IMG/VR virus record: IMGVR_UViG_3300014827_000003
Span: 1-52,692 of that record
DNA length: 52,692 nucleotides
Reading direction: 5' to 3' (one strand)
DNA from: a virus
The notes beneath the pieces are model-generated. The model saw nothing but the letters and a program-made list of their open reading frames with translations, ran no database searches and had not been told where the DNA came from. A program made the position numbers and the translations under genes. Shown here piece by piece: positions 6,914-52,692 of this stretch. Each line of letters opens with the position of its first letter. Positions within the stretch are counted from its first letter, which is position 1.

Positions 6914-8607
6914 AAAACCCCTTCGATATTGTAGACGAAGTAAATTTATTTGAAGCCTATAACTATGCTCAAGAGATTGTTTCTGGTGAGAAAATTGCCT
7001 GTAAATATATTATTGGAGCTTGTAACAGATTTTTAAAAGATATTGAACTAACTAAAGACCCAACTTCAAAATATGTTTTCGATTCTGAGTATGCTGAAAG
7101 ATATTTAAGACTAGTGCAGAAGTTCGAACACTACATCGGTACTTGGGAAACCCCCACTATTAAATATGAGTCTTGGCAAAAGTGGGCATGGACCTTTGCC
7201 CTTGGATTTAAACATAGAAAAGATTTAAGAATTCCCAGATATAGAACAATCCACATAGAGGTCCCCAGGGGATGCGCCAAGTCAACAATGGCATCTCAAT
7301 GTGCTTTATATTTTCTCGGCCTTGAAAAGAATAGAGCAGGGGAAAAAATTGCTTGCTTTGCAACAAAATCCTCTCAATCGAGAATCATTCTAGACGGTTC
7401 AAGATCAATGGCCCGTAAATCAGAACAATATTTAAAAGCCTCTGGAGTAGAGGTATTGGCCCATAAACTTGTAGACAAAAATACAGACTCAGAAATGATC
7501 TCAATGTCATCTGAATCTAAATCAATGGATGGTTTGAACTTAAGAGTAGCTTTCTTAGATGAGCTACATGCTATGAGTAGAGCTCTATTTGACGTAATCG
7601 TATCAGGGCAAAAGAAAAGAAATGACTCATTAACAATATGCTGTACTACAGCAGGATTTAATACAGATGGGGTCGGCCACAGCCAATCACAATATGCCAA
7701 GAAAGTTGCACTAGGGGAAGTTGAAGATGAGACTTTCTGTGCGATTGTTTATACGATTGATGATGGTGATGATTTATTTGAAGAAAGTACTTGGAGAAAA
7801 GCAAACCCTAATTACGGGGTTTCCGTAGATCCAATTGCATTTGAAGCTACTGCAATTAAGGCTCGTGAAGTTCCTTCTGACCTTGCAAACTTTAAAGTTA
7901 AATCGCTGAATGTCTGGATCTCCGAGGGAAGTGCATATTTCGATGTGGCTAAATGGGATGAGTGTGCTGACCTGACTTTAAACATTGATAACTTCAAACA
8001 GAAATATTGTTACTCAGCAATCGACTTGGCTTCAAAGGTGGATTTAACTTCCTTTGGATTTTTATTCAGAGAGAATAGACATTACTATTTCTTCGATAAA
8101 TCTTTCATCCCCGAAAAAACCCTACAAGAATCTAAAAATGCATTGTTTGATAATTGTGTCGGGGACGGGTACTTATTTAAGACTCCTGGGGAAGCAATAA
8201 ATTACCCCATTCTTGAAAAAGAATTTGAAACCGAAATAAAAAAATTGAGGAATCATTCAACTCACTTTGATCCTTGGAACGCTGTGTCCTTCTCTCAAAG
8301 CATGGAAAAGAAAAATATAAATATGGTGGAATTTAGAATGAACGTGGCCAACTTCTCAGAGGCCATGAAAACACTTGATGCGCTAATCAGAGAAAAAAGA
8401 ATATCACATAATGGATCTCCCTTACTACGATTCTGCATTGGAAATGTGATTGCAAAACCTGATGCGGCTGGTAACGTCTATCCTCGCAAAAGCCATGAGA
8501 GTTTGAAGATCGATCCTATCATTTGTTTGCTTATGTGTTTGGCAGGGTGGATTCAAGAGAAGGAGGAAGAGAGCAGATATGCGGACCACGGAATTCGTTA
8601 TATTTAG
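6904..8607 (+). CDS. terL: Terminase large subunit
   Basis: 567 residues. The ATPase shows a deviant Walker A PRGCAKST (121-128), Walker B AFLDELHA (Asp219, Glu220) and a coupling motif around CTTAGFN. The nuclease half has SAIDLASKVDLTSFGF and a later Asp in THFDPWN. This matches the Terminase_1/HK97 type that pairs with P27 small subunits. It pumps and cuts DNA at the portal. The ATG overlaps the methyltransferase end by 10 bases. The last 77 bases are overlapped antisense by the homing endonuclease gene. Confidence 0.95.
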   Translation: MALENPFDIVDEVNLFEAYNYAQEIVSGEKIACKYIIGACNRFLKDIELTKDPTSKYVFDSEYAERYLRLVQKFEHYIGTWETPTIKYESWQKWAWTFALGFKHRKDLRIPRYRTIHIEVPRGCAKSTMASQCALYFLGLEKNRAGEKIACFATKSSQSRIILDGSRSMARKSEQYLKASGVEVLAHKLVDKNTDSEMISMSSESKSMDGLNLRVAFLDELHAMSRALFDVIVSGQKKRNDSLTICCTTAGFNTDGVGHSQSQYAKKVALGEVEDETFCAIVYTIDDGDDLFEESTWRKANPNYGVSVDPIAFEATAIKAREVPSDLANFKVKSLNVWISEGSAYFDVAKWDECADLTLNIDNFKQKYCYSAIDLASKVDLTSFGFLFRENRHYYFFDKSFIPEKTLQESKNALFDNCVGDGYLFKTPGEAINYPILEKEFETEIKKLRNHSTHFDPWNAVSFSQSMEKKNINMVEFRMNVANFSEAMKTLDALIREKRISHNGSPLLRFCIGNVIAKPDAAGNVYPRKSHESLKIDPIICLLMCLAGWIQEKEEESRYADHGIRYI

Positions 8608-10309
8608 GAAGCTTTAAAGTAACTGTTCCTGAATTCCAAATTTGGTGTATTTTATTAATCCTACAATTTTCTTTCTCGGATGCTCCAGGATTAAATTTAC
8701 CTCCTAAAATTTTAGCTAGTTCTTTCCTCCTAAATTTAAACTTAGATACTCTTTTATCCTTATACACATAGTGAAGTGTGCGGTTTTCAGTGACATACTG
8801 AAACCCGTTTTTGTAGTATGCTCCACCCTCAAATTTATCTAGATCAACATAACTCACTAAATCTTCCAATGGATTTGATCTCCTCCAATTAGTCAGTAGT
8901 TTTGAAAATCCTCCAACAACTGAGGTATCTATTTTATTTGCCATTCTCTGAAGTTCCCACCCGGAATACCCCTTCTTAAATGCCATTAGGCAAACTAGTT
9001 CTCCATCGTAGTTTAACCCAAGATAAGTTGAAGCAGAGCCACCACTTCCCAGAAGGTGATTTTCATCTAGAAATATTGTCGCTTTGTCAGAACTTACCTC
9101 TATTAGTAAACACTTTCTCGCGTATATTTTAGTGATATCCTTATTTAGAACATTCCTTAAATAGGCTTTGACTACTTCCTTGTTATTTTTAAACTCATCT
9201 TCCCAAATTTGAATTACTCTTATTCCCTCTCTATTGAAAGCCCTTCTTTTATTCGTGTGGTAATTAGAATCCTTAGTCCTAGATGAGTGGAAATGCAGTC
9301 CGTTATACTCAATTGCCAAATTAATTTCAGGGAGGAAAATATCTGCTTCAAGATTACTTAGTAATAGTCCTGTCCAGTTCCTTAAAATTACCCCTCTGTA
9401 AATCTCTCCAATATAACTGGCTAAGACCTCTTCTCCCTTAGAGAAGTTTACAGCACATTTTGGACAACCCATAACGCAGCCATGCGCATGGTCCTTCCAA
9501 TTCTGTAGAAAACTCCCGTGAGATGGGCAGACAATATTCAAATTTTCACAATATCTAGTATCCCAATCAACTAAGGAGTAATCATATTTACTACTGTATT
9601 TCTTATTACAATAGTCCAACCACTCGCCAAATTTTAAACTTAGCCTAACAGAAGTTTCATCTCCCTTACATTTAGGACACCCTACATTTTTTGTTACTTG
9701 GTCGTAGTACAAACTAGCAAATTCCCCATGTGTGCCACACACACCAGTTATTTTGGAGTGTGAGTCTTTATATTCTTTTCCCAGATATGGGAAATCGTAT
9801 CTGTCCCCGTAAATTTCCAGTAAGGTTTTAGAAACTTTGTCAATAGAGTTTCTTCTTAAATCTGCCCCATAGTCTCTGGAACATTTAAAGCAAGCCCTAT
9901 TTTCAGATCGGGTGAAAAATTGCCTAACAGTTTTAGAGAATACTCCGTGAGTAGGGCAACTTAAATTAAGTGTCAGATTATAGTTAATAGGGCCGACACA
10001 TTCTGAAACAATACTAACACCTAATTTATAAGCTCTGACCAGAACTCTATCCCAGGTAATTCCCTTGCTGGAAATTATCGCAGAAGTAGTTCTCTCCCTA
10101 CCACATTTAGGACACCCCCTTTTTGTCGAAACATGAGAACTAGGGGTTTGGGAAAAATCTCCATGGATTTTACACCCTATAATAATATTATAGTCATTCC
10201 TGATATACTCCGATTTAGAGTAGTCATAAAGATCCCCGTGAACTTCAACGGCTCTTTGCAACATAGTGGCGGTATCCACCACTCGAATCTTATTTTTCAA
10301 ATTATCCAT
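8531..10309 (-). CDS. Hef-like homing endonuclease (zinc modules + EDxHD nuclease)
   Basis: 592 residues on the opposite strand to the packaging genes. About four repeated DUF723-like modules (VHGDLYDYSKSEYI..., then CxxHG and CPKC, ending near residues 75, 145, 212 and 288) probably bind DNA with zinc. A nuclease follows: EADIFLPEINLAIEYNGLHF (about 318-338), GIRVIQIWEDEF (about 360-371). This is the architecture of T-even Hef-type enzymes that spread by cutting phage DNA. An extended -10 box sits just upstream. It lies exactly between terL and the protease, and its own stop is inside terL. Confidence 0.88.
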   Translation of the reverse strand: MDNLKNKIRVVDTATMLQRAVEVHGDLYDYSKSEYIRNDYNIIIGCKIHGDFSQTPSSHVSTKRGCPKCGRERTTSAIISSKGITWDRVLVRAYKLGVSIVSECVGPINYNLTLNLSCPTHGVFSKTVRQFFTRSENRACFKCSRDYGADLRRNSIDKVSKTLLEIYGDRYDFPYLGKEYKDSHSKITGVCGTHGEFASLYYDQVTKNVGCPKCKGDETSVRLSLKFGEWLDYCNKKYSSKYDYSLVDWDTRYCENLNIVCPSHGSFLQNWKDHAHGCVMGCPKCAVNFSKGEEVLASYIGEIYRGVILRNWTGLLLSNLEADIFLPEINLAIEYNGLHFHSSRTKDSNYHTNKRRAFNREGIRVIQIWEDEFKNNKEVVKAYLRNVLNKDITKIYARKCLLIEVSSDKATIFLDENHLLGSGGSASTYLGLNYDGELVCLMAFKKGYSGWELQRMANKIDTSVVGGFSKLLTNWRRSNPLEDLVSYVDLDKFEGGAYYKNGFQYVTENRTLHYVYKDKRVSKFKFRRKELAKILGGKFNPGASEKENCRINKIHQIWNSGTVTLKLPKYNEFRGPHICSLPPSLESTLPNT

Positions 10310-39725: not shown

Positions 39726-40121
39726 ATGGAAGCACAAAAAAGAAAATTCACTGTAACAAAAACAATTTCTGCTCAACAGAGCTACCGAAAACTTTCAGAG
39801 TATTCTGAGGGTGACACTGTAGTAGGTAAGTATGTTGGGACTCACGTTTGCCAGTACGACAAACAAAATCCAAAAATTCAAGTACTAGAAGCTATCTTCA
39901 AAGATGGTACTGGCCCAGCATTAGCAGGGAAAATTCTAGTAGTTAATCATTGTGGAGCTTTAGGTAAAGCAATGGAAGAAGTAGAAGTTGGAGAGTACGT
40001 TCAACTTGAATATACTGGAACTGTTCCTTTAACTAAGGGTAAATTCGCTGGTAAAGATTGCTATACTTTCGATGTGCAAGTAGTTACTCTAGACGAAGGT
40101 GATGCAAGTGATAGCCTCTAG
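39726..40121 (+). CDS. Putative OB-fold ssDNA-binding protein
   Basis: 131 residues from ATG 39726 with AAGGAG six bases upstream. The segments YSEGDTVVGKYVGTHVCQY, KILVVNHCGALGKAMEEVEV and YVQLEYTGTVPLTKGKFAG resemble a five-stranded OB barrel of a phage family that sits between polymerase and exonuclease. The C-terminus is acidic (DEGDASDSL), as in many SSBs. The role is inferred from fold pattern and place. Confidence 0.65.
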   Translation: MEAQKRKFTVTKTISAQQSYRKLSEYSEGDTVVGKYVGTHVCQYDKQNPKIQVLEAIFKDGTGPALAGKILVVNHCGALGKAMEEVEVGEYVQLEYTGTVPLTKGKFAGKDCYTFDVQVVTLDEGDASDSL

Positions 40122-41040
40122 AGGATTAATCTTCGATATGAGTAGTGATGAGTATCATGGGATGGGTGGAACTTATTCATCCTCCCAACTCAAAACCATG
40201 CTCGAAGATCCTGAAATATTCTATAAAAAATATATTACCAAGGAAATTCCTAAAGAAAGTAACAGTGCATTCGACATTGGTACATACTTCCATACAGCTA
40301 TCCTTGAACCGCATAATCTAGATAATGAGTGTGCGGTGTTCACTGGAGCTAAGAGAATTGGAGTTGCTTGGGAAGCTTTTAAAGTAGCTCATGCTGGAAA
40401 GGCAATCATAACTAATAGTGAGTATGACAAGGCCCAAGTACTAGTCAAAGCTATTAAAGCCTCTCCAATTGCTATGAAGTACCTAGAAGGTAGTAAGGCG
40501 GAGGTATCTACTTTCGTAGATATTTTTGTCCTCGATAAGAAGGTGTACACTTCAATTAAAGGAAGTATTCATATTCTATCCGCTATCGGTTGGGAGGGTA
40601 GTATCAGTATGTCTCTTGAACTATTACAAGAATTTGCAGTTAAACTAACACTGAAGGTTCGTGCTGATAGTATAAGAGTGGGGGAGGGGATTATCTCTGA
40701 CCTTAAGAGCACAGGAGGAAACTGCAAAAATAAACATGATATAGAAGCTAAAGTTGCCTCGTATGAGTATGACTTATCGGCTTCACTGTATCTGGATATT
40801 TTTACTGCTGCCACTGGTGAGCTTTACCATACCTTCGCTTGGTTATTCGCAAGCAAAGACATGGGTAATTCTAAAACTTGGCTTGCTAGCGAGAGACAAA
40901 AAATCGTTGGAAGGTATAAGTGGCGAAATGCTGTAGTCCTTTTAGCTAAATACATTAGCGAAGATTGGATTTTCAGTGATGAAATAGGAATAGCAGATCC
41001 AACGTATTATAATGCAATTTTATTAAATGAGGAGTTTTAA
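40108..41040 (+). CDS. PD-(D/E)XK exonuclease, RecE/exoVIII-like
   Basis: About 310 residues; GTG 40108 has GAAGG eight bases upstream (GTG 40099 and ATG 40102 also in frame). The opening GLIFDMSSDEYHGMGGTYSS is typical of the DUF3799 group. IGTYFHTAILEP, KVRADSIRVGEGIISDLKST and the ASLYLDIF helix form the nuclease core. An extra stretch around KKVYTSIKGSIHILSAIGWE interrupts the usual spacing. It probably resects DNA ends for recombination with the ssDNA-binding neighbour. Confidence 0.8.
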   Translation: MIASRGLIFDMSSDEYHGMGGTYSSSQLKTMLEDPEIFYKKYITKEIPKESNSAFDIGTYFHTAILEPHNLDNECAVFTGAKRIGVAWEAFKVAHAGKAIITNSEYDKAQVLVKAIKASPIAMKYLEGSKAEVSTFVDIFVLDKKVYTSIKGSIHILSAIGWEGSISMSLELLQEFAVKLTLKVRADSIRVGEGIISDLKSTGGNCKNKHDIEAKVASYEYDLSASLYLDIFTAATGELYHTFAWLFASKDMGNSKTWLASERQKIVGRYKWRNAVVLLAKYISEDWIFSDEIGIADPTYYNAILLNEEF

Positions 41041-43367: not shown

Positions 43368-43713
43368 ATCTAATACAGGTGGAACGGGTAAGAAATTTGC
43401 TAAAAAGCGAATGTATGAAACCGTTGAATGGGTTGAATTCAGGAATAGATTTATCCAAGCAAATTCTAAGTGTTATGCGTGCGGTTGTCGTGCTGTCATT
43501 GTGGATCATATTGTCTCAGCAAAAGGTGATGAAGGACTGTTCTGGAATGAGCTTAATTATATTCCATTATGTAAGCCCGATCACGATTACATAAGCGGTA
43601 AGTTTGATAGATACATACCCCCTAGAACTGAAGCCAAGCTTATATGGATTAACAACAAAAGATTGGAAACGGGGACCGCAATAAAGGTTCAAGTAGTTAG
43701 CCTAAAAAAATAA
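43345..43713 (+). CDS. HNH endonuclease
   Basis: 122 residues from GTG 43345, inside the end of the membrane gene. The core is CYACGCRAVIVDHIVSAKGD with ELNYIPLCKPDHDYISGKFD, an HNH fold with a zinc knuckle. Basic N-terminus. Either a mobile endonuclease or a packaging-type HNH; the distance from terL argues against the latter. Confidence 0.8.
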   Translation: MKKAKLFKSNTGGTGKKFAKKRMYETVEWVEFRNRFIQANSKCYACGCRAVIVDHIVSAKGDEGLFWNELNYIPLCKPDHDYISGKFDRYIPPRTEAKLIWINNKRLETGTAIKVQVVSLKK

Positions 43714-44434: not shown

Positions 44435-44638
44435 ATGATAAAAGTAGGCGACATATATTTATTGGAAAATACAAAGAATACATCTTACTTTGAAATTGTT
44501 CTTACTTGGGGCTTTGAAACAAGCAAGGTAAAGGTAGTATCGTGGGAAGACGCTTACCTTAAGGGGACTTTAACATTAAGCCGTCACTGGTTCACGGGTC
44601 TTGAATCTTTTAGGGCAACCAAAATAGGGGAATTATGA
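44435..44638 (+). CDS. Small beta-rich hypothetical protein
   Basis: 67 residues (IKVGDIYLLENTKNTSYFEI, TWGFETSKVKVVSWE), SH3-like in pattern. GGGG precedes the ATG. It overlaps the next gene as ATGA. Not recognised. Confidence 0.55.
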   Translation: MIKVGDIYLLENTKNTSYFEIVLTWGFETSKVKVVSWEDAYLKGTLTLSRHWFTGLESFRATKIGEL

Positions 44639-44865
44639 TGAGTGAGCAGGATAAGTTAAAAGAAGAGGCTTGGTGGATTGCATACAATGATTGCAAGTTA
44701 AGTCATATTGCACACATTCAGGACTATTTTAAAGCTGGCTACGAAGCCGCACCAAAAGGCATTGATAAGGAAAAGCTGATTGAGTTTTGTAAAAGCAGAA
44801 CTTACGCTAGTGCCTTGTTAGATATGATTAATAATGGTGATTTTGATATGAAGGGGGATTTATGA
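44635..44865 (+). CDS. Accessory protein with MSEQDKLKE head
   Basis: 76 residues; either of two adjacent ATGs can start it. The first residues MSEQDKLKEEA are shared, down to the DNA, with the gene at 45468, while the rest differs (WWIAYNDCKLSHIAHIQDYF). It ends close to the next ribosome site. Function unknown. Confidence 0.55.
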   Translation: MMSEQDKLKEEAWWIAYNDCKLSHIAHIQDYFKAGYEAAPKGIDKEKLIEFCKSRTYASALLDMINNGDFDMKGDL

Positions 44866-45018: not shown

Positions 45019-45468
45019 ATGACATCAGAAAATCTAGCGAAGTGGAGAGAGGAGTGTAGGATATTTGAAAACAGTCCACGCTCTGAAAACATTAACGGTC
45101 AAAGTTTTTATCTCGAAGCTTGCGAAAAGCGACAGGTGGAGATTGACGAGTTGAAAGCGAGAGCGGTTGTTCATGGTAAGACAATGTTTCACGAACTAAC
45201 CTTGTTTGATATTTCAGTCAAGGATTATCAAAAGCAAATCCAAAAACTCAAAGAACAGAAAGAATATATCATGGGGATGTATGATAGCGTGTTTAATGAA
45301 AATTTTAAGCTAAAAGAGCAGTTAAAGATTGAGAGGGAGTTAGTTGACGAAGCCTATCCCGAAATGCTGCCTTTGAAATATAAAGCAGTTCAAGAAAAAA
45401 GAGAGCCATATAAATATATTGATTGGCAAGAAAGAGTTAAATTAACCCAACAACAAAGGAGTGAGTGA
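45019..45468 (+). CDS. Coiled-coil accessory protein
   Basis: 149 residues, mostly helical with heptads (YQKQIQKLKEQKEYIMGMYD, FKLKEQLKIERELVDE). The C-terminus LTQQQRSE is encoded by the repeated 27-bp junction. A related KLKEQLKREQDCVDK and a LTQQNRSE end occur in the HNH gene at 46708. AAGGA precedes the ATG. Unknown function. Confidence 0.6.
   Translation: MTSENLAKWREECRIFENSPRSENINGQSFYLEACEKRQVEIDELKARAVVHGKTMFHELTLFDISVKDYQKQIQKLKEQKEYIMGMYDSVFNENFKLKEQLKIERELVDEAYPEMLPLKYKAVQEKREPYKYIDWQERVKLTQQQRSE
45441..45467 (+). repeat. Cassette junction repeat, copy 1
   Basis: 27 bases, ATTAACCCAACAA then CAAAGGAGTGAGTG, carrying the Shine-Dalgarno for the next gene. Identical to copy 4 at 48126 and near-identical to copies at 47262 and 47879. 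Here it also encodes the C-terminus of the gene before. Confidence 0.9.
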
Positions 45469-45689
45469 TGAGTGAGCAGGATAAGTTAAAAGAGGATAAG
45501 GAAGTGGCGGCAATAATGAAGATAAATGAAGTTCTTAAGGAGATAAAAGACCCTGACGACATATCGAGAATCTTAGAATACTTCACGGCCAGGTATTGTT
45601 TTAGTTATAAAAACGGAAGAGAGTCAACACTTAGAAATATCGAGTTTATGCTTAATAAGTACTGCAAAACAGACATTAGTGAACCTTAA
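45468..45689 (+). CDS. Accessory protein with MSEQDKLKE head
   Basis: 73 residues from ATG 45468, six bases after AAGGAG. The head MSEQDKLKED is shared with 44635, then KEVAAIMKINEVLKEIKDPD and a short helical domain. Probably a fusion of a shared start with a different body. Unknown function. Confidence 0.55.
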   Translation: MSEQDKLKEDKEVAAIMKINEVLKEIKDPDDISRILEYFTARYCFSYKNGRESTLRNIEFMLNKYCKTDISEP

Positions 45690-45704
45690 ATAGTGGAGAT
45701 GGAA

Positions 45705-46202
45705 ATGACAGCTGAAAAATTAAAAGACATATTAGATAATCATAAAAAATGGCTAAGTAATAGCAACGAAGGGGCTAGAGCTAACTTGCGTGGAGCTAAC
45801 TTGTGTGGAGCTGACTTGCGTGGAGCTGACTTGCGTAGAGCTGACTTGCGTGGAGCTAACTTGCGTGGAGCTAACTTGAGGGAAGCTAACTTGTGTGGAG
45901 CTGACTTGAGGGGAGCTAACTTGTGTGGAGCTGACTTGCGTGGAGCTAACTTGAGGGAAGCTAACTTGCATAGAGCTGACTCAGACTTTTCGGTATTTAG
46001 AGGACTATCCGGAATGAAATGGTTTGTTTTGTTAAAAAATGATTCAGTAAAAATAGGATGCCAAGAACATTTATACAAAACATGGAAAGAATTTTCAGAT
46101 GATAAGATTTCTAAGATGAGCGAGGGAGCTTTAGGTTTTTACAACATGATTATTCCAGTGCTAGATTATCACTATAAAAATACTGAATGGGAAATTAAAT
46201 AA
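45705..46202 (+). CDS. Pentapeptide-repeat protein, paralogue 1
   Basis: 165 residues. N-terminal [20 protein letters not shown], then about 16 A(N/D)L(R/C)(G/E) pentapeptides forming a right-handed beta helix, then an 80-residue C-terminal domain ([20 protein letters not shown]). Pentapeptide proteins such as Qnr and MfpA mimic DNA and bind gyrase; that is a family analogy only. Paralogues lie at 46214 and 50854. GTG and ATG starts at 45693 and 45699 are also in frame. Confidence 0.75.
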
Positions 46203-46213
46203 TGGAGATAAAA

Positions 46214-46696
46214 ATGAAAGCTGAAAAATTAAAAGACATATTAGATAATCATAAAAAATGGCTAAGTAATAGCAACGAAGGGGCTAGCGCTAACTTGCGT
46301 GGAGCTGACTTGAGGGGAGCTGACTTGAGGGGAGCTAACTTGCGTGGAGCTGACTTGAGTGGAGCTGACTTGAGGGGAGCTAACTTGAGTGGAGCTGACT
46401 TGAGTGGAGCTGACTTGCATGGAGCTGACTTGCGTGGAGCTAACTTGAGTGGAGCTGACTTGTATGGAGCTGAATCCGACTTTTCAATACTTGTAGGAAT
46501 ATCAGGAATGAGATGGTTTGTTTTGTTAAAAAATGATTCAGTAAAAATAGGATGCCAAGAACACACCTATAAATCGTGGAAGGAATTTTCAGATGGTGAG
46601 ATTTCTAAGATGAGCGAGGGAGCTTTGGATTTTTACTATATGATTATTCCAGCGCTAGATTATCACTACGAAAATACTGAATGGGAAATTAAATAA
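46214..46696 (+). CDS. Pentapeptide-repeat protein, paralogue 2
   Basis: 160 residues, same three-part layout as the gene before it. The first 80 bases of both genes are almost identical, and the repeat units (GGAGCTGACTTG) drift in number. The C-terminal domain is about 80-90% similar by eye. GGAGATAAAA just before the ATG also stands before the next gene. A tandem duplication is the simplest origin. Confidence 0.75.
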
Positions 46697-46707
46697 TGGA
46701 GATAAAA

Positions 46708-47289
46708 ATGAGCTTGGGATTAATGGACGATGAAGAGAAAGCAAAACTACATAGCGAATTTGTTCACTATATCGTTGCTAAAAACTTAGAACTTTATGAG
46801 GAGATTAAAAAACTCAAAGAGCAGTTAAAGCGTGAGCAAGATTGTGTGGATAAATTTGTAATATCTAGATTTTGGTCTAAGGTCGATGTTAAGAAAAAGA
46901 ATGAGTGTTGGAATTGGAGGTCTTCAATTTCTAACGGATACGGAAAGTTTTCAATAGATAATTATCCTCATTCAGCCCACGTTATATCCTATAAATATTT
47001 CCATGGTGAATATGACAAAGAACTATGGATTGACCACAAATACATGAATCGGTCGTGTGTAAATCCTGAGCACCTAAGACTTGTTACTCCGAGAATAAAT
47101 GGAATAGAAAATAGCGGCGGTACTTCGGCTGAGAATTTTTTAAAAACTCATTGTAAAAATGGTCATGAATTTACGGCAGAAAATACATATCTAAGGAAAC
47201 ATGGCACTTACACACATAGGATGTGCAAAGCTTGTGCGAAAATATCAAAAAAACTAGCCCGATTAACCCAACAAAACAGGAGTGAGTGA
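46708..47289 (+). CDS. HNH endonuclease with accessory-type N-terminus
   Basis: 193 residues from MSLGLMDDEEK. A coiled-coil head (EEIKKLKEQLKREQDCVDKF) like that of the gene at 45019 is joined to a complete HNH_3 enzyme: RFWSKVDVKKKNECWNWR, DHKYMNRSCVNPEHLRLVT, and a C-terminal zinc motif HCKNGHEFTAENTY with RMCKACAK. The end LTQQNRSE comes from the junction repeat. It appears that a homing endonuclease has been captured in a cassette frame. Confidence 0.82.
   Translation: MSLGLMDDEEKAKLHSEFVHYIVAKNLELYEEIKKLKEQLKREQDCVDKFVISRFWSKVDVKKKNECWNWRSSISNGYGKFSIDNYPHSAHVISYKYFHGEYDKELWIDHKYMNRSCVNPEHLRLVTPRINGIENSGGTSAENFLKTHCKNGHEFTAENTYLRKHGTYTHRMCKACAKISKKLARLTQQNRSE
47262..47288 (+). repeat. 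Cassette junction repeat, copy 2
   Basis: 27 bases, ATTAACCCAACAA then AACAGGAGTGAGTG, identical to copy 3 at 47879. It encodes the end of the HNH gene and provides AGGAG for the methyltransferase-like gene. Confidence 0.9.
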
Positions 47290-47879
47290 TGAAAGTTCTT
47301 GTTGCTTGCGAATATAGTGGAGTTGTAAGAGATGCCTTTAAGCGAAGAGGTCACGATGCCATATCGTGCGATTTTCTCCCGAGTGACTCCCAGGGAGAGC
47401 ATTATCAGGGAGATGTCTTTGATATAATTAACGATGGGTTTGACTTAATGATCGCCCACCCTCCTTGTACTTATTTATGCAATAGCGGTGTTTCTTGGCT
47501 GCATAAAGATCCAACCAGATGGGGGAAAATGTTACAGGGAGCATTGTTTTTTAGAAACTTGTTAGATGCCAACATTCCAAAAATTTGTATAGAAAACCCC
47601 ATTATGCACAAGTATGCGTATGAGAGGGGTAATTTTATGAACTATAATCAAATAATTCAACCTTGGATGTTTGGACACCCAGAATCAAAATCTACTTGCC
47701 TTTGGTTGAAAGGGTTAAGTCCATTAGTAGAAACAAACAACGTAAAAGAAGAATTTCTAGCACTACCTAAAAAAGTAGCTCAAAGACTTCATTACTTACC
47801 ACCATCAAAAGATAGGTGGAAACTAAGATCAACAACGTTTCAAGGAATAGCGGACGCAATGGCAGAACAGTGGGGATAA
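47289..47879 (+). CDS. DNA methyltransferase-like phage protein
   Basis: 196 residues. MKVLVACEYSGVVRDAFKRR is a glycine-poor motif I, DLMIAHPPCTYLCNSG carries a PPC(T/Y) motif IV-like site, and ICIENPIMHKYA follows. This family is common in phages and is related to C5-MTases, but lacks a clear target domain, so activity is uncertain. It starts six bases after AGGAG in the junction repeat. Confidence 0.8.
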   Translation: MKVLVACEYSGVVRDAFKRRGHDAISCDFLPSDSQGEHYQGDVFDIINDGFDLMIAHPPCTYLCNSGVSWLHKDPTRWGKMLQGALFFRNLLDANIPKICIENPIMHKYAYERGNFMNYNQIIQPWMFGHPESKSTCLWLKGLSPLVETNNVKEEFLALPKKVAQRLHYLPPSKDRWKLRSTTFQGIADAMAEQWG

Positions 47880-47905
47880 TTAACCCAACAAAACAGGAGT
47901 GAGTG
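47879..47905 (+). repeat. Cassette junction repeat, copy 3
   Basis: Same 27 bases as copy 2, here lying fully between genes (it begins on the last base of the previous stop). It supplies the ribosome site of the next gene. Confidence 0.9.
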
Positions 47906-48130
47906 ATGAGTAAAATTAAGAAAGGTGATTGCGTAATTAACTACTGTGAAAGCGAAGGGATTATCAATATAGGGTTCGTAATGGATGAGCCAAATGATAC
48001 AGACGAGCATGATTTACAGTTTTTCGACGGAGGGTCAGTAAGTCCAGTTAGCACTAGTGATAGTTACGCTATACCAGAAAAGCTAGGTAGATATTTGGAT
48101 AGTTTAATTCCGTTTATTGACGAAGATTAA
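47906..48130 (+). CDS. Small acidic hypothetical protein
   Basis: 74 residues (MSKIKKGDCVINYCESEGII), beta-rich and acidic towards the end. AGGAG is six bases upstream. Unknown function. Confidence 0.55.
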   Translation: MSKIKKGDCVINYCESEGIINIGFVMDEPNDTDEHDLQFFDGGSVSPVSTSDSYAIPEKLGRYLDSLIPFIDED

Positions 48131-48152
48131 CCCAACAACAAAGGAGTGAGTG
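48126..48152 (+). repeat. Cassette junction repeat, copy 4
   Basis: Same 27 bases as copy 1, followed by one A and an ATG. It includes the stop of the gene before and the ribosome site of the gene after. Confidence 0.9.
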
Positions 48153-48153
48153 A

Positions 48154-48501
48154 ATGTTCTGGATAATATTACCTCTATTTAGTTTTATCCTCGGATGGTT
48201 TTTATCTAAACAGCATGAAGAAGACAGACTATCTTTTAGATTAAAAGAAGCAAGAGTAGGAGGTTTTTTAACAGGGAAAAGACATGGTATTTTTGTTAGC
48301 CATCTTCAAGCAAAGCAAACAATGAAAGAATTAAAAAAGTTTATTGCTGTTAAGTATCCCTATAGATCTAACGAACACGATAGAGAAATAACAAGTGTGA
48401 TATTTAGGCACCCATATGATAAAGCCATTTATGAGATATGCAATTTAACGGAGTACCAGGGAGTCACTAATTTGATACATAAAAGTGACAAGGAGAAATA
48501 A
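48154..48501 (+). CDS. Membrane-anchored hypothetical protein
   Basis: 115 residues. MFWIILPLFSFILGWFLSKQ is an N-terminal anchor, and the rest is a soluble basic domain (LKEARVGGFLTGKRHGIFVS). AAGGAG is eight bases before the ATG. Its stop overlaps the next ATG (TAATG). Unknown function. Confidence 0.6.
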   Translation: MFWIILPLFSFILGWFLSKQHEEDRLSFRLKEARVGGFLTGKRHGIFVSHLQAKQTMKELKKFIAVKYPYRSNEHDREITSVIFRHPYDKAIYEICNLTEYQGVTNLIHKSDKEK

Positions 48502-49928: not shown

Positions 49929-50852
49929 ATGAAAAAAGTATTCAATAATTCACAACTTTGTCACATTTGGGCCAACGAATCACAAAGCGAGGGAAGTAAT
50001 CCAGGGAATAGCCTATACTTTGAAGCTACCGAAATTTATAGTTATGGAAGTCATTACCTAGCAGGGAAGATTTTTACCGTAAAAGGGGAAAAATTCGCAA
50101 TCGTGAATAACCACAATTATTCCAATGCTACGGCAAAGCATCTTGCGTGTATTAGATCGGCTTTGCACGGTAAAATGCCCTATTTTTGTTTACCCAATGT
50201 CTCTGACTCAAAAGACCGGGAAAATATCGATTATCTAAATCAAACTGTTTTTAATTGTTTAGACTCAATACTATCTAGCCGTAAACAATCGGGAAAATAT
50301 GATATTGACCGCCTTGAAAGTACCATTAAAAATGCTAACGAGTTTTTTACCCTAGTAAACGAAAAATTGATAGTTATTACAAGTGACTTTTTAGAACTAT
50401 TGAAGGAAGTGAATAGTGATAAGTTGGCCCTTAGAAAAGAGCGTGATGCCCTGAATAATAGCCCTGAAATGATTGCTAAAAAAGAGGCATCAATTAAAGC
50501 TAAAAACGCTTTATTGCAAGCTGAAAAAGCTTTATTGCAAGCTGAAAAGATTAATAAATTTAGATCGTTTGAAGCTAGATCAGTAAATATTAGACCTCAC
50601 CTATTAAGAATTAAAGACGATACAGTGCAAACAAGCTCGGGCGCAGATGTCCCATTGAATGATGCCATTAAATTACTTGAATTGGTACTTAGTGACCAAT
50701 GTAAAAGAGGGGATAAAATAGGTCATTTTTCACTTGATGGTGTTCTATATGATCAAGAAAATCGCGAAAGGGTTATAAAAATAGGCTGTCACGATATTTT
50801 GGTAAGCGAGGCCGTGGCCGTTTTAGGTCATTTAATTAAAAAGGAGATATAA
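49929..50852 (+). CDS. Phage protein of unknown function (YSYGSHY family)
   Basis: 307 residues. The N-terminal 90 residues ([56 protein letters not shown]) match a family seen in many phages and plasmids, with conserved W-A and YSYGxHF but no known role. The middle is a coiled coil with a 21-bp tandem duplication (50508-50549, ALLQAEK twice). The last 30 codons carry the sequence repeated after the next gene. AAGGAG precedes the ATG. Confidence 0.7.
50812..50841 (+). repeat. 30-bp direct repeat, left copy
   Basis: CCGTGGCCGTTTTAGGTCAT followed by TTAATTAAAA, within the end of the gene at 49929. A perfect second copy is at 51298-51327 and a shorter relative at 52105-52130. The two copies bracket the pentapeptide gene. 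Confidence 0.92.
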
Positions 50853-50853
50853 A

Positions 50854-51297
50854 ATGAATTTAAAAGAAATATTAGATAATCATAAAAAATGGATAAGTAA
50901 TAGCGACGAAGGGGCCAGAGCTGACTTGCGTGGAGCTGACTTGAGGGGAGCTGACTTGCGTGGAGCTGACTTGAGGGGAGCTAACTTGTGTGGAGCTGAC
51001 TTGTGTGGAGCTGACTTGTGTGGAGCTGACTTGAGGGGAGCTAACTTGTGTGGAGCTGACTTGCGTGGAGCTGACTCAGACTTTTCGGTATTTAGAGGAC
51101 TATCCGGAATGAAATGGTTTGTTTTATTAAAAAATGATTCAGTAAAAATAGGATGCCAAGAACACACCTATAAATCGTGGAAGGAATTTTCAGATGATGA
51201 GATTTTTAAGATGAGCAATGGAGCGTTAGATTTTTACTACATGATTATTCCAGTTTTGGACTATCACTACAAAAATACTGAATGGGAAATTAAATAA
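50854..51297 (+). CDS. Pentapeptide-repeat protein, paralogue 3
   Basis: 147 residues: [20 protein letters not shown], about 13 pentapeptides ([10 protein letters not shown]), then the same C-terminal domain ([20 protein letters not shown]). It is closer to the paralogues at 45705 and 46214 than to anything near it. The flanking 30-bp direct repeats suggest that it was inserted here. AAGGAG is seven bases upstream. Confidence 0.75.
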
Positions 51298-51327
51298 CCG
51301 TGGCCGTTTTAGGTCATTTAATTAAAA
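51298..51327 (+). repeat. 30-bp direct repeat, right copy
   Basis: Perfect repeat of 50812-50841, now non-coding, one base after the pentapeptide stop. It leads into GGGATATGAAATG, a ribosome-site context like that before 52135. Confidence 0.92.
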
Positions 51328-51337
51328 GGGATATGAA

Positions 51338-51636: not shown

Positions 51637-51827
51637 GTGCAAATTATTTAATTAGAGAGTATGACGCCCTTACTAAAATGATTAATGAATTGCCTAAGGG
51701 TTATATAAAAGACGCTTGCAGCCTATTACAAGATGCTTTTTATGAGCAAATAGGCTTTAATAATATTAAAGCTTGTCAGTTAAAAAATGTTATTAAATTT
51801 ATTCTAAATAATGAAGGTATTCAATGA
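51633..51827 (+). CDS. Hypothetical protein
   Basis: 64 residues, helical (MSANYLIREYDALTKMINEL), in ATGA overlaps at both ends. Unknown function. Confidence 0.5.
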   Translation: MSANYLIREYDALTKMINELPKGYIKDACSLLQDAFYEQIGFNNIKACQLKNVIKFILNNEGIQ

Positions 51828-52120
51828 AAAAAGAATTAGAACAACTATGTCAACCTTTAAACGTTGATAAAACCGACGCAGAAATAATTGAAGAGTATGG
51901 GGAGTTAACTCTAGAGTTAGAAGAGAGCAAAGAAGCAATTGAAGAACATATGAATGATTTAGTTAATTACAAGAATGAGTTAGAAGAGATTGAGGAGAAC
52001 ATAGAGGCTTTTAGTGAATGGCTTAAAACGAATATTGAATCTCATTTTAAAACTGAGAGAGATAATACTTTTGATGAAATATTAACAGAATTTAACAAAT
52101 TATTTAGGCCATTTAATTAA
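51824..52120 (+). CDS. Acidic coiled-coil protein
   Basis: 98 residues, strongly acidic with heptads (LTLELEESKEAIEEHMNDLV, NELEEIEENIEAFSEW). ATGA overlap with the gene before. Unknown function; possibly a protein-protein adaptor. Confidence 0.55.
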   Translation: MKKELEQLCQPLNVDKTDAEIIEEYGELTLELEESKEAIEEHMNDLVNYKNELEEIEENIEAFSEWLKTNIESHFKTERDNTFDEILTEFNKLFRPFN

Positions 52121-52134
52121 AAAGGGATATTAAA

Positions 52135-52317
52135 ATGAAAAACCTAGACGAATATAAGAAAAAACCGGGATTAAAAAAGAGAAGCGACAAGGTAACTACT
52201 ATCAACTTAACGCTATCTCAGTGGATATTTTTAAAGGAAAATAACATTGATTTCAGCAAGTTAGTGAGAGCGTATTTACAGCAAATAATGTCCGAAAACA
52301 ACAAAAAAGAGGTGTAA
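52135..52317 (+). CDS. Ribbon-helix-helix DNA-binding protein
   Basis: 60 residues. KKRSDKVTTINLTLSQWIFL, then KENNIDFSKLVRAYLQQIM fits a CopG/Arc-type ribbon-helix-helix: one strand with alternating residues and two helices. It probably represses its own operon or another phage promoter. AAGGG lies seven bases upstream, after a relative of the 30-bp repeat. Confidence 0.7.
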   Translation: MKNLDEYKKKPGLKKRSDKVTTINLTLSQWIFLKENNIDFSKLVRAYLQQIMSENNKKEV

Positions 52318-52592: not shown

Positions 52593-52616
52593 GTTGCCTT
52601 ATTCATGTCCTATTCC

Positions 52617-52692
52617 ATCTAATCATCTAATCATCTAATCATCTAATCATCTAATCATCTAATCATCTAATCATCTAATCATCTAATCATCT
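52617..52692. repeat. Right terminal tandem repeat (CTAATCAT)n
   Basis: A partial CAT, nine perfect CTAATCAT units (52619-52690) and a final CT, in the same orientation as the left array. If the last CT is overlapped with the first CT of the window, the two arrays fuse into one in-register array. Confidence 0.95.

Follow-up and report, generated by a model that had tools for sequence, protein, structure and literature searches.

A repeated 27-bp gene joint in the accessory gene array of a tailed phage

Lambdoid phages are reported to become mosaics through relaxed homologous recombination (PMC3945230; PMC2327257), cluster K mycobacteriophages carry 13-base-pair (bp) Start Associated Sequences (SAS; GGGATAGGAGCCC) 11-19 times per genome, for the most part where over 50 bp separate a gene from the preceding one (PMC3203893), and T4-type phages carry promoter/stem-loop (PeSL) cassettes, repeated short joints said to mediate gene shuffling between related phages (PMC4503421). 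Here we describe a 27-bp element, X, which stands at four gene joints of IMG/VR virus record IMGVR_UViG_3300014827_000003, analysed over its whole length of 52,692 bases (the window). The record is that of a tailed phage, with terminase, capsid, tail, family A DNA polymerase, SNF2-type helicase and RecE-type nuclease genes.

The nin regions of lambdoid phages are chains of small genes with overlapping stop and start codons, and with conserved joints that are thought to guide recombination. PeSL cassettes of T4-type phages are reportedly also the subject of work by Arbiol in 2010 and Comeau in 2014. How phages add or swap genes at the exact boundaries of open reading frames (ORFs) without breaking operons is debated: random joins may be sifted by selection, or conserved joints may be the sites of recombination.

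The X element and its four copies

X (ATTAACCCAACAA(CAA/AAC)AGGAGTGAGTG, of which ATTAACCC is a stretch) occurs in four copies, all on the + strand. A scan of both strands of all 52,692 bases with the pattern ATTAACCCAACAAMAMAGGAGTGAGTG, allowing up to 3 mismatches, returned exactly these four, each with 0 mismatches; 100 dinucleotide shuffles returned none, which rules out a chance origin of the repeats. An earlier sequence-only reading of this DNA had placed four copies in two variants here, with copies 1 and 4 (CAA) alike and copies 2 and 3 (AAC) alike, two coding and two noncoding. The scan bore out all four positions and both variants, and the ORF frames agree with the division.

Copy 1 (45441-45467, CAA form) is the coding end, LTQQQRSE and stop, of the ORF at 45019-45468, and leads through AGGAG and a TGATG joint into the ORF at 45468-45689. 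Copy 2 (47262-47288, AAC form) is the coding end, LTQQNRSE and stop, of a coiled-coil/HNH ORF (46708-47289), and also the leader of a DNA methyltransferase-like ORF (47289-47879; the methylase); it is the copy with a matching joint in a relative, record G002 (L006:7652, discussed below). Copy 3 (47879-47905, AAC form) is noncoding: it starts on the final base of the methylase's TAA stop, after which it stays in the LTQQNRSE frame, and it forms the leader of the ORF at 47906-48130. Copy 4 (48126-48152, CAA form), likewise noncoding, contains the TAA stop of that ORF (48128-48130) in another frame and is the leader of the ORF at 48154-48501. X ends 0-1 base before each of the start codons at 45468, 47289, 47906 and 48154, with one A between copy 4 and its ATG.

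The edges of X are sharp. Over the 27 bp, pairwise identity among the four copies averages 0.95, with variation at two positions only, against 0.25-0.35 before X, 0.53 in the six bases that directly follow and 0.21-0.32 farther on (blocks of at least 12 bp). Coding constraint alone is insufficient to explain this, because X is noncoding in copies 3 and 4, and conservation as coding sequence only is thereby ruled out. An AGGAG ribosome site lies inside X, and in three copies X runs into TGATG, an overlapping stop and start. Together with the next base (28 bases), X has a stop in all three frames (a computed result for copy 1, read by eye in the other three), which is notable but not rare, because 2.5% of the 30-base stretches of the window (1,301/52,662) have the same property.

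We somewhat favour an origin of X as a gene-joint module, probably at first the 3' tail of a coiled-coil gene together with the ribosome site of the gene after it, multiplied by general (short-homology) recombination during the insertion or exchange of genes beside it. The sharp edges, the noncoding copies, the change of frame, a second gene held between repeats (Y, below) and the presence of a RecE-like gene argue for this origin. Recombination between X copies, by phage or host enzymes, would have placed the genes, and the methylase would have entered, or taken the place of another gene body, between the two AAC copies. An ORF landing upstream of X in any frame would be closed, the next ORF would be opened through AGGAG and TGATG, and translation from X would be efficient. 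The nested pairing of the variants (1 with 4, 2 with 3) hints at one event inside another, a hint of little weight as it is one of three possible pairings.

The repetition could also have arisen without any swapping at X: an ancestral gene ending in LTQQxRSE would have been duplicated in tandem, its bodies diverging or being replaced while tails and leaders were left. We regard this as a sizeable minority possibility. The genes before copies 1 and 2 have in common a 27-nucleotide (nt) coil-coding stretch (45307-45333, + strand, 85% like 46810-46836; family D17) as well as the tail, copy 3 keeps the LTQQNRSE frame past a stop, and the adjacent pentapeptide genes are clear tandem duplicates. Self-comparison, however, gave neither the methylase nor the ORF at 47906-48130 a match to the coil gene, identity falls to background directly before X, and reading enters copy 4 in a different frame. 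Part of the X pattern is probably owed to a gene tail that was duplicated and decayed.

The position of the copies also fits a regulatory start sequence, kept by selection as a translational regulator or RNA binding site of a co-regulated gene set, much as the SAS of cluster K. X always lies just ahead of a start codon, on one strand and at the non-structural end only, has conserved bases outside its Shine-Dalgarno core, and finds a parallel in other phages with repeated leaders of their own (L174, L283). We nevertheless consider this explanation unlikely: there are only four copies, clustered within 2.7 kilobases (kb), those of the relative G002 are mostly degenerate, and the four window regions have no common fold (z-scores from -1.93 to +1.31). 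Of the four 90-nt X regions, folded with RNA parameters, the one at copy 3 is somewhat more stable than its shuffles (z-score -1.93), partly through bases outside X, and the other three are no more stable than theirs. X thus shows no common RNA hairpin, and a promoter or terminator element was rejected in a scan for sigma-70-like promoters and terminators: no sigma-70-like site is common to the four copies, and counts in the array region equal those of shuffles (promoters 38 vs 35.9, terminators 4 vs 4.4).

Repeat Y and the genes of the array

A third repeat family, Y (CCGTGGCCGTTTTAGGTCATTTAATTAAAAAGGAGAT), had been absent from the sequence-only reading; all its copies are on the + strand. 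Y copy 1 (50812-50848; family D10) comprises the coding end of the ORF at 49929-50852 and a ribosome site, ahead of pentapeptide gene 3 (50854-51297, + strand). Y copy 2 (51298-51334; family D10), 95% identical over 37 nt, is noncoding and begins at the first base after the stop of that gene, which thus has Y at both borders. Y copy 3 (52103-52139; family D5) is partial, 84% identical to 50822-50858. It supplies the coding end (FRPFN) of the ORF at 51824-52120, in a frame other than that of copy 1, and the leader for an ORF that starts at 52135. No Y was seen in the other 311 sources at up to 7 mismatches in 29 bases.

Y with pentapeptide gene 3 and X with the methylase have one layout: a tail and leader, an ORF, a copy of the tail and leader, and the next ORF. 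Pentapeptide gene 3 would have entered, or taken the place of another gene body, between two Y copies. X and Y are most likely scars that short-homology recombination left during the gain and exchange of genes, and would persist as harmless and useful, allowing genes to come in or be swapped with their neighbours left intact.

A dedicated site-specific cassette system acting on X, integron-like or driven by homing of the HNH protein, would predict units of one ORF and one X, and the methylase and the ORF at 47906-48130 have this form; the HNH gene lies within the array and itself ends in X. X, however, has no stable fold of its own, and Y, of the same layout but different sequence, is not explained by one site-specific enzyme. 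HNH genes are moreover common in phages. We consider such a system very improbable.

The sequence-only reading had also proposed a second type of junction joining the pentapeptide genes. The joint, GGGAAATTAAATAATGGAGA, is indeed present in two copies (46189 and 46683), and a weaker form lies around 45682. The joint consists of the tail and leader of pentapeptide genes duplicated in tandem (the proteins are 77% identical), and is plain gene duplication. Pentapeptide gene 1 (45705-46202, + strand; PF00805, 7.9e-27) is followed by its tandem duplicate, gene 2 (46202-46696, + strand; 77% amino acid identity), the leader included, and gene 3 lies 4.2 kb off; the three are 77-80% identical, with differing repeat numbers and similar C-terminal parts.

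The array genes described next, like the ORFs at 47906-48130 and 48154-48501, lie on the + strand. The ORF at 45019-45468 (149 amino acids) has a coil-like stretch (KLKEQLKIE) before its X tail; it has no Pfam match and one weak PHROG match (E 0.014), and no relatives in the viral contigs or the phages collection. The next ORF (45468-45689, 73 amino acids from the ATG at 45468, MSEQDKLKED...) has a 31-nt start in common with the ORF at 44635 (45466-45496 is 97% like 44636-44666; family D14); this start and the 27-nt coil repeat are further marks of mosaicism. The ORF at 46708-47289 combines a coil-like stretch (KLKEQLKREQDCVDKF), an HNH domain (PF13392, 3e-10; phrog_826, 4.2e-39) and the X tail (KLARLTQQNRSE). 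The methylase (196 amino acids; phrog_757, 3.6e-58), without a Pfam or NCBIfam match, fills the space from X copy 2 to X copy 3, overlapping by 1 base. Outside the array, at 40099-41040 (+ strand), lies the RecE-type (exonuclease VIII-like) nuclease (DUF3799; phrog_412, 2.1e-40), a possible source of recombination activity; it scored 64.6 of 1269 bits against the NCBIfam exonuclease VIII model, far under the cut-off.

One and the same tandem array, with the 8-base unit CATCTAAT, makes up both ends of the window (about 1-77 and 52615-52692). The record may represent a complete genome, circular or permuted, with its opening inside this array.

X in relatives and repeated leaders in other phages

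A scan of viral contigs for the gapped X pattern returned two records, L005 and L006. The L005 match has no start codon after it and is taken as chance. L006 is from record G002 (39,616 bases), whose polymerase and SNF2 helicase are 46% and 33% identical to those of the window: a true but distant relative. At L006:7652, X ends a 90-amino-acid ORF (KLARLTQQNRSE) with 1 mismatch in a 23-base pattern, and this is the sole G002 site within 3 mismatches of that pattern. The gene tail is the same, with about 40 nt highly identical despite the 46% identity of the polymerases. Weaker forms at 9363 (intergenic, containing the upstream gene's stop) and, still weaker, at 9124 (coding end LTKGSE) appear from the alignment to be akin to X, and all three precede an ATG. 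A decayed form, akin to X on the same judgement, lies near 7872.

The window was compared with L006 only (9,993 of the 39,616 bases of G002). The coil (45% over 49 amino acids) and the last 40 nt or so of the ORF at L006:7408-7680 match those of the HNH ORF in the window, and a short unrelated middle takes the place of the HNH domain; going by this alignment, a small coiled-coil gene may have gained the domain by insertion, or may have lost it. After X at L006:7652 comes a small ORF (<50 codons) and no methylase. The coil/tail gene is thus common to both phages while its middle and the downstream ORF differ, and therefore one joint is shared with different content at its flanks. This is what is expected of a mosaic phage joint, which would have different neighbour genes from one related genome to the next; here it is seen in one relative only. 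The other array genes gave no convincing match in L006 at E 0.01; what remained were matches in antisense frames and one of 45 residues (E 0.004) that links the ORF at 49929-50852 with the helicase frame. In a separate part of L006 (8293-8623), repeats of a 6-base type are open in two frames simultaneously (GSGSGYGDG and DLDLDMEMD types).

Elsewhere X was scarce. It is absent from 9/9 other polymerase-related loci (L147-L155, several of which are fragments or near-copies of each other), the tenth, L146, being G002 again. The Silvanigrella phage CP017838 has no X either: two sites there match the ribosome-site half with 3 errors and lack the remainder. An AT-rich leader like AAATTAAATAACGGAGA, which resembles the window's pentapeptide leader, occurs at several places in that genome (L145), and the polymerase (30%) gives no more than a hint of a host link for the window phage. 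A loose scan of L156-L315 (up to 6 errors) returned G002 again (L158) and four weak matches (L227, L228, L293, L296). Two further patterns, AACAAAGGA(N)GTGAGTGATG and TTAACCCA(2-3 N)AACAAAGGA, returned 13 and 46 stretches of viral contigs, with L006 in both; the others, some with TATAAT just upstream, were judged by eye to be leaders of other phages or chance. In tblastn searches of 26 window ranges of the array end (one of them, 43403-43713, out of frame) against 306 fetched loci, only the HNH, methylase and pentapeptide genes found matches. A host or plasmid origin was rejected on 0 exact matches of the gapped X pattern in the genome_contigs collection and on no plasmid match to 47286-48500.

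The search of related phages and host prophages proposed in the sequence-only reading thus yielded one diverged phage, G002, and no exact gapped match in genome_contigs. Its central claim, that genes were swapped as cassettes through X, holds in part: sharp edges, noncoding copies and the different genes beside X in G002 speak for it, while the sample is a single relative and tandem duplication explains part of the pattern. It had named fixed gene order in all relatives, with X kept only as coding sequence, as the outcome that would contradict it, and what we found is otherwise, again in a sample of one relative.

Several points weigh against recombination at X as the source of the repeats. 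A homology of 27 bp is short for efficient homologous recombination. As the genes before copies 1 and 2 have coil and tail in common, part of the X repetition may be old paralogy. The pairing of the variants depends on two variable positions. X is found in one relative only, with one copy there within 3 mismatches of the 23-base pattern, and therefore no gene is shown in two orders. The closest polymerase relative, L155 (57% over 165 amino acids), is a fragment that ends short of the array and so provides no test. No annealing protein of the RecT, Erf or Sak type was found among the proteins scanned, which are part of the proteome only.

The methylase is a common phage gene: at least 599 stretches of viral contigs match its patterns, with 591 relatives among the matches listed. 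Of the 80 loci kept, 14 were inspected over 40 bases on each side of the ORF (including at least two pairs of near-identical contigs); 0/14 had X on either side and all 14 had other leaders. A loose scan of all 80 for X gave two weak matches only (L293 and L296).

We also surveyed how often leaders are repeated within a phage, counting loci in which at least two gene starts have at least 23/27 leader bases in common between unlike flanks. Among 306 other loci (3.15 Mb), chosen apart from the copies of the window and its relatives (L001-L004, L007, L008, L146, L157, L158), 12 had two or more such starts, and 2 of the 12 (L174, L283) had three or more. Such joints are therefore uncommon but recurrent, with a sequence that differs per phage. 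The rate is rough, since the survey leaves out those loci, drops repeats with similar flanks and starts near the end of a locus, misses degenerate families (L006 went unscored), counts near-identical contigs separately, so that some of the 12 are near-copies, and may include some unreal starts. Applied to the window, the same method scores the pentapeptide repeats too. In L174, a contig fetched through its SNF2 helicase, ten starts between 2400 and 6600 fall into four groups with leaders like TATTTTAGAAAGGGAAAGAAG. Two of these leaders are preceded by a repeated tail (by eye, DEPIKE if in frame), a separate case of a repeated joint.

Comparison with described systems

X illustrates known phage mosaicism neatly and on a local scale; the case is that of one phage and a single relative. 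X and Y, both compact and defined by sequence, hold the methylase and pentapeptide ORFs precisely between direct copies; with them, recombination at joints could be tested simply, and so could the strength of translation from the module. A wider model would have accessory arrays consist of single-ORF cassettes, each with a joint that closes any frame and restarts translation. Crossover between joints would double the joint (X-gene-X, Y-gene-Y), an endonuclease of the array would cut nearby and drive the gain of cassettes, and each lineage would have a joint of its own. We give this model only a slim chance of being right.

The SAS resembles X as a short asymmetric AGGAG repeat directly ahead of the starts of unrelated genes, mostly in one orientation and in the non-structural part of the genome, in places containing the preceding gene's stop. 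All four X copies have this position and orientation (+ strand only, 45.4-48.2 kb). X differs in its length of 27 bp, in its four copies and in overlapping or abutting the end of the preceding gene, whose stop falls inside X, on the first base of X, or across the next start; by inspection, the copies have only the AGGAG core in common with the SAS consensus. The PeSL cassette is described as an early promoter with a stem-loop, whereas our scans for sigma-70-like sites and folds found neither in X, and folding against shuffles gave X no hairpin of the integron attC type. The layout of the lambdoid nin joints may resemble that of X; among the papers listed in a literature search, none described conserved joints of the nin type.

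We do not file X as a member of the SAS, PeSL or nin-joint kinds. In a literature searched for the kind of joint rather than for the letters of X, the kind is already known; the sequence and layout of X appear to be a new form of it.

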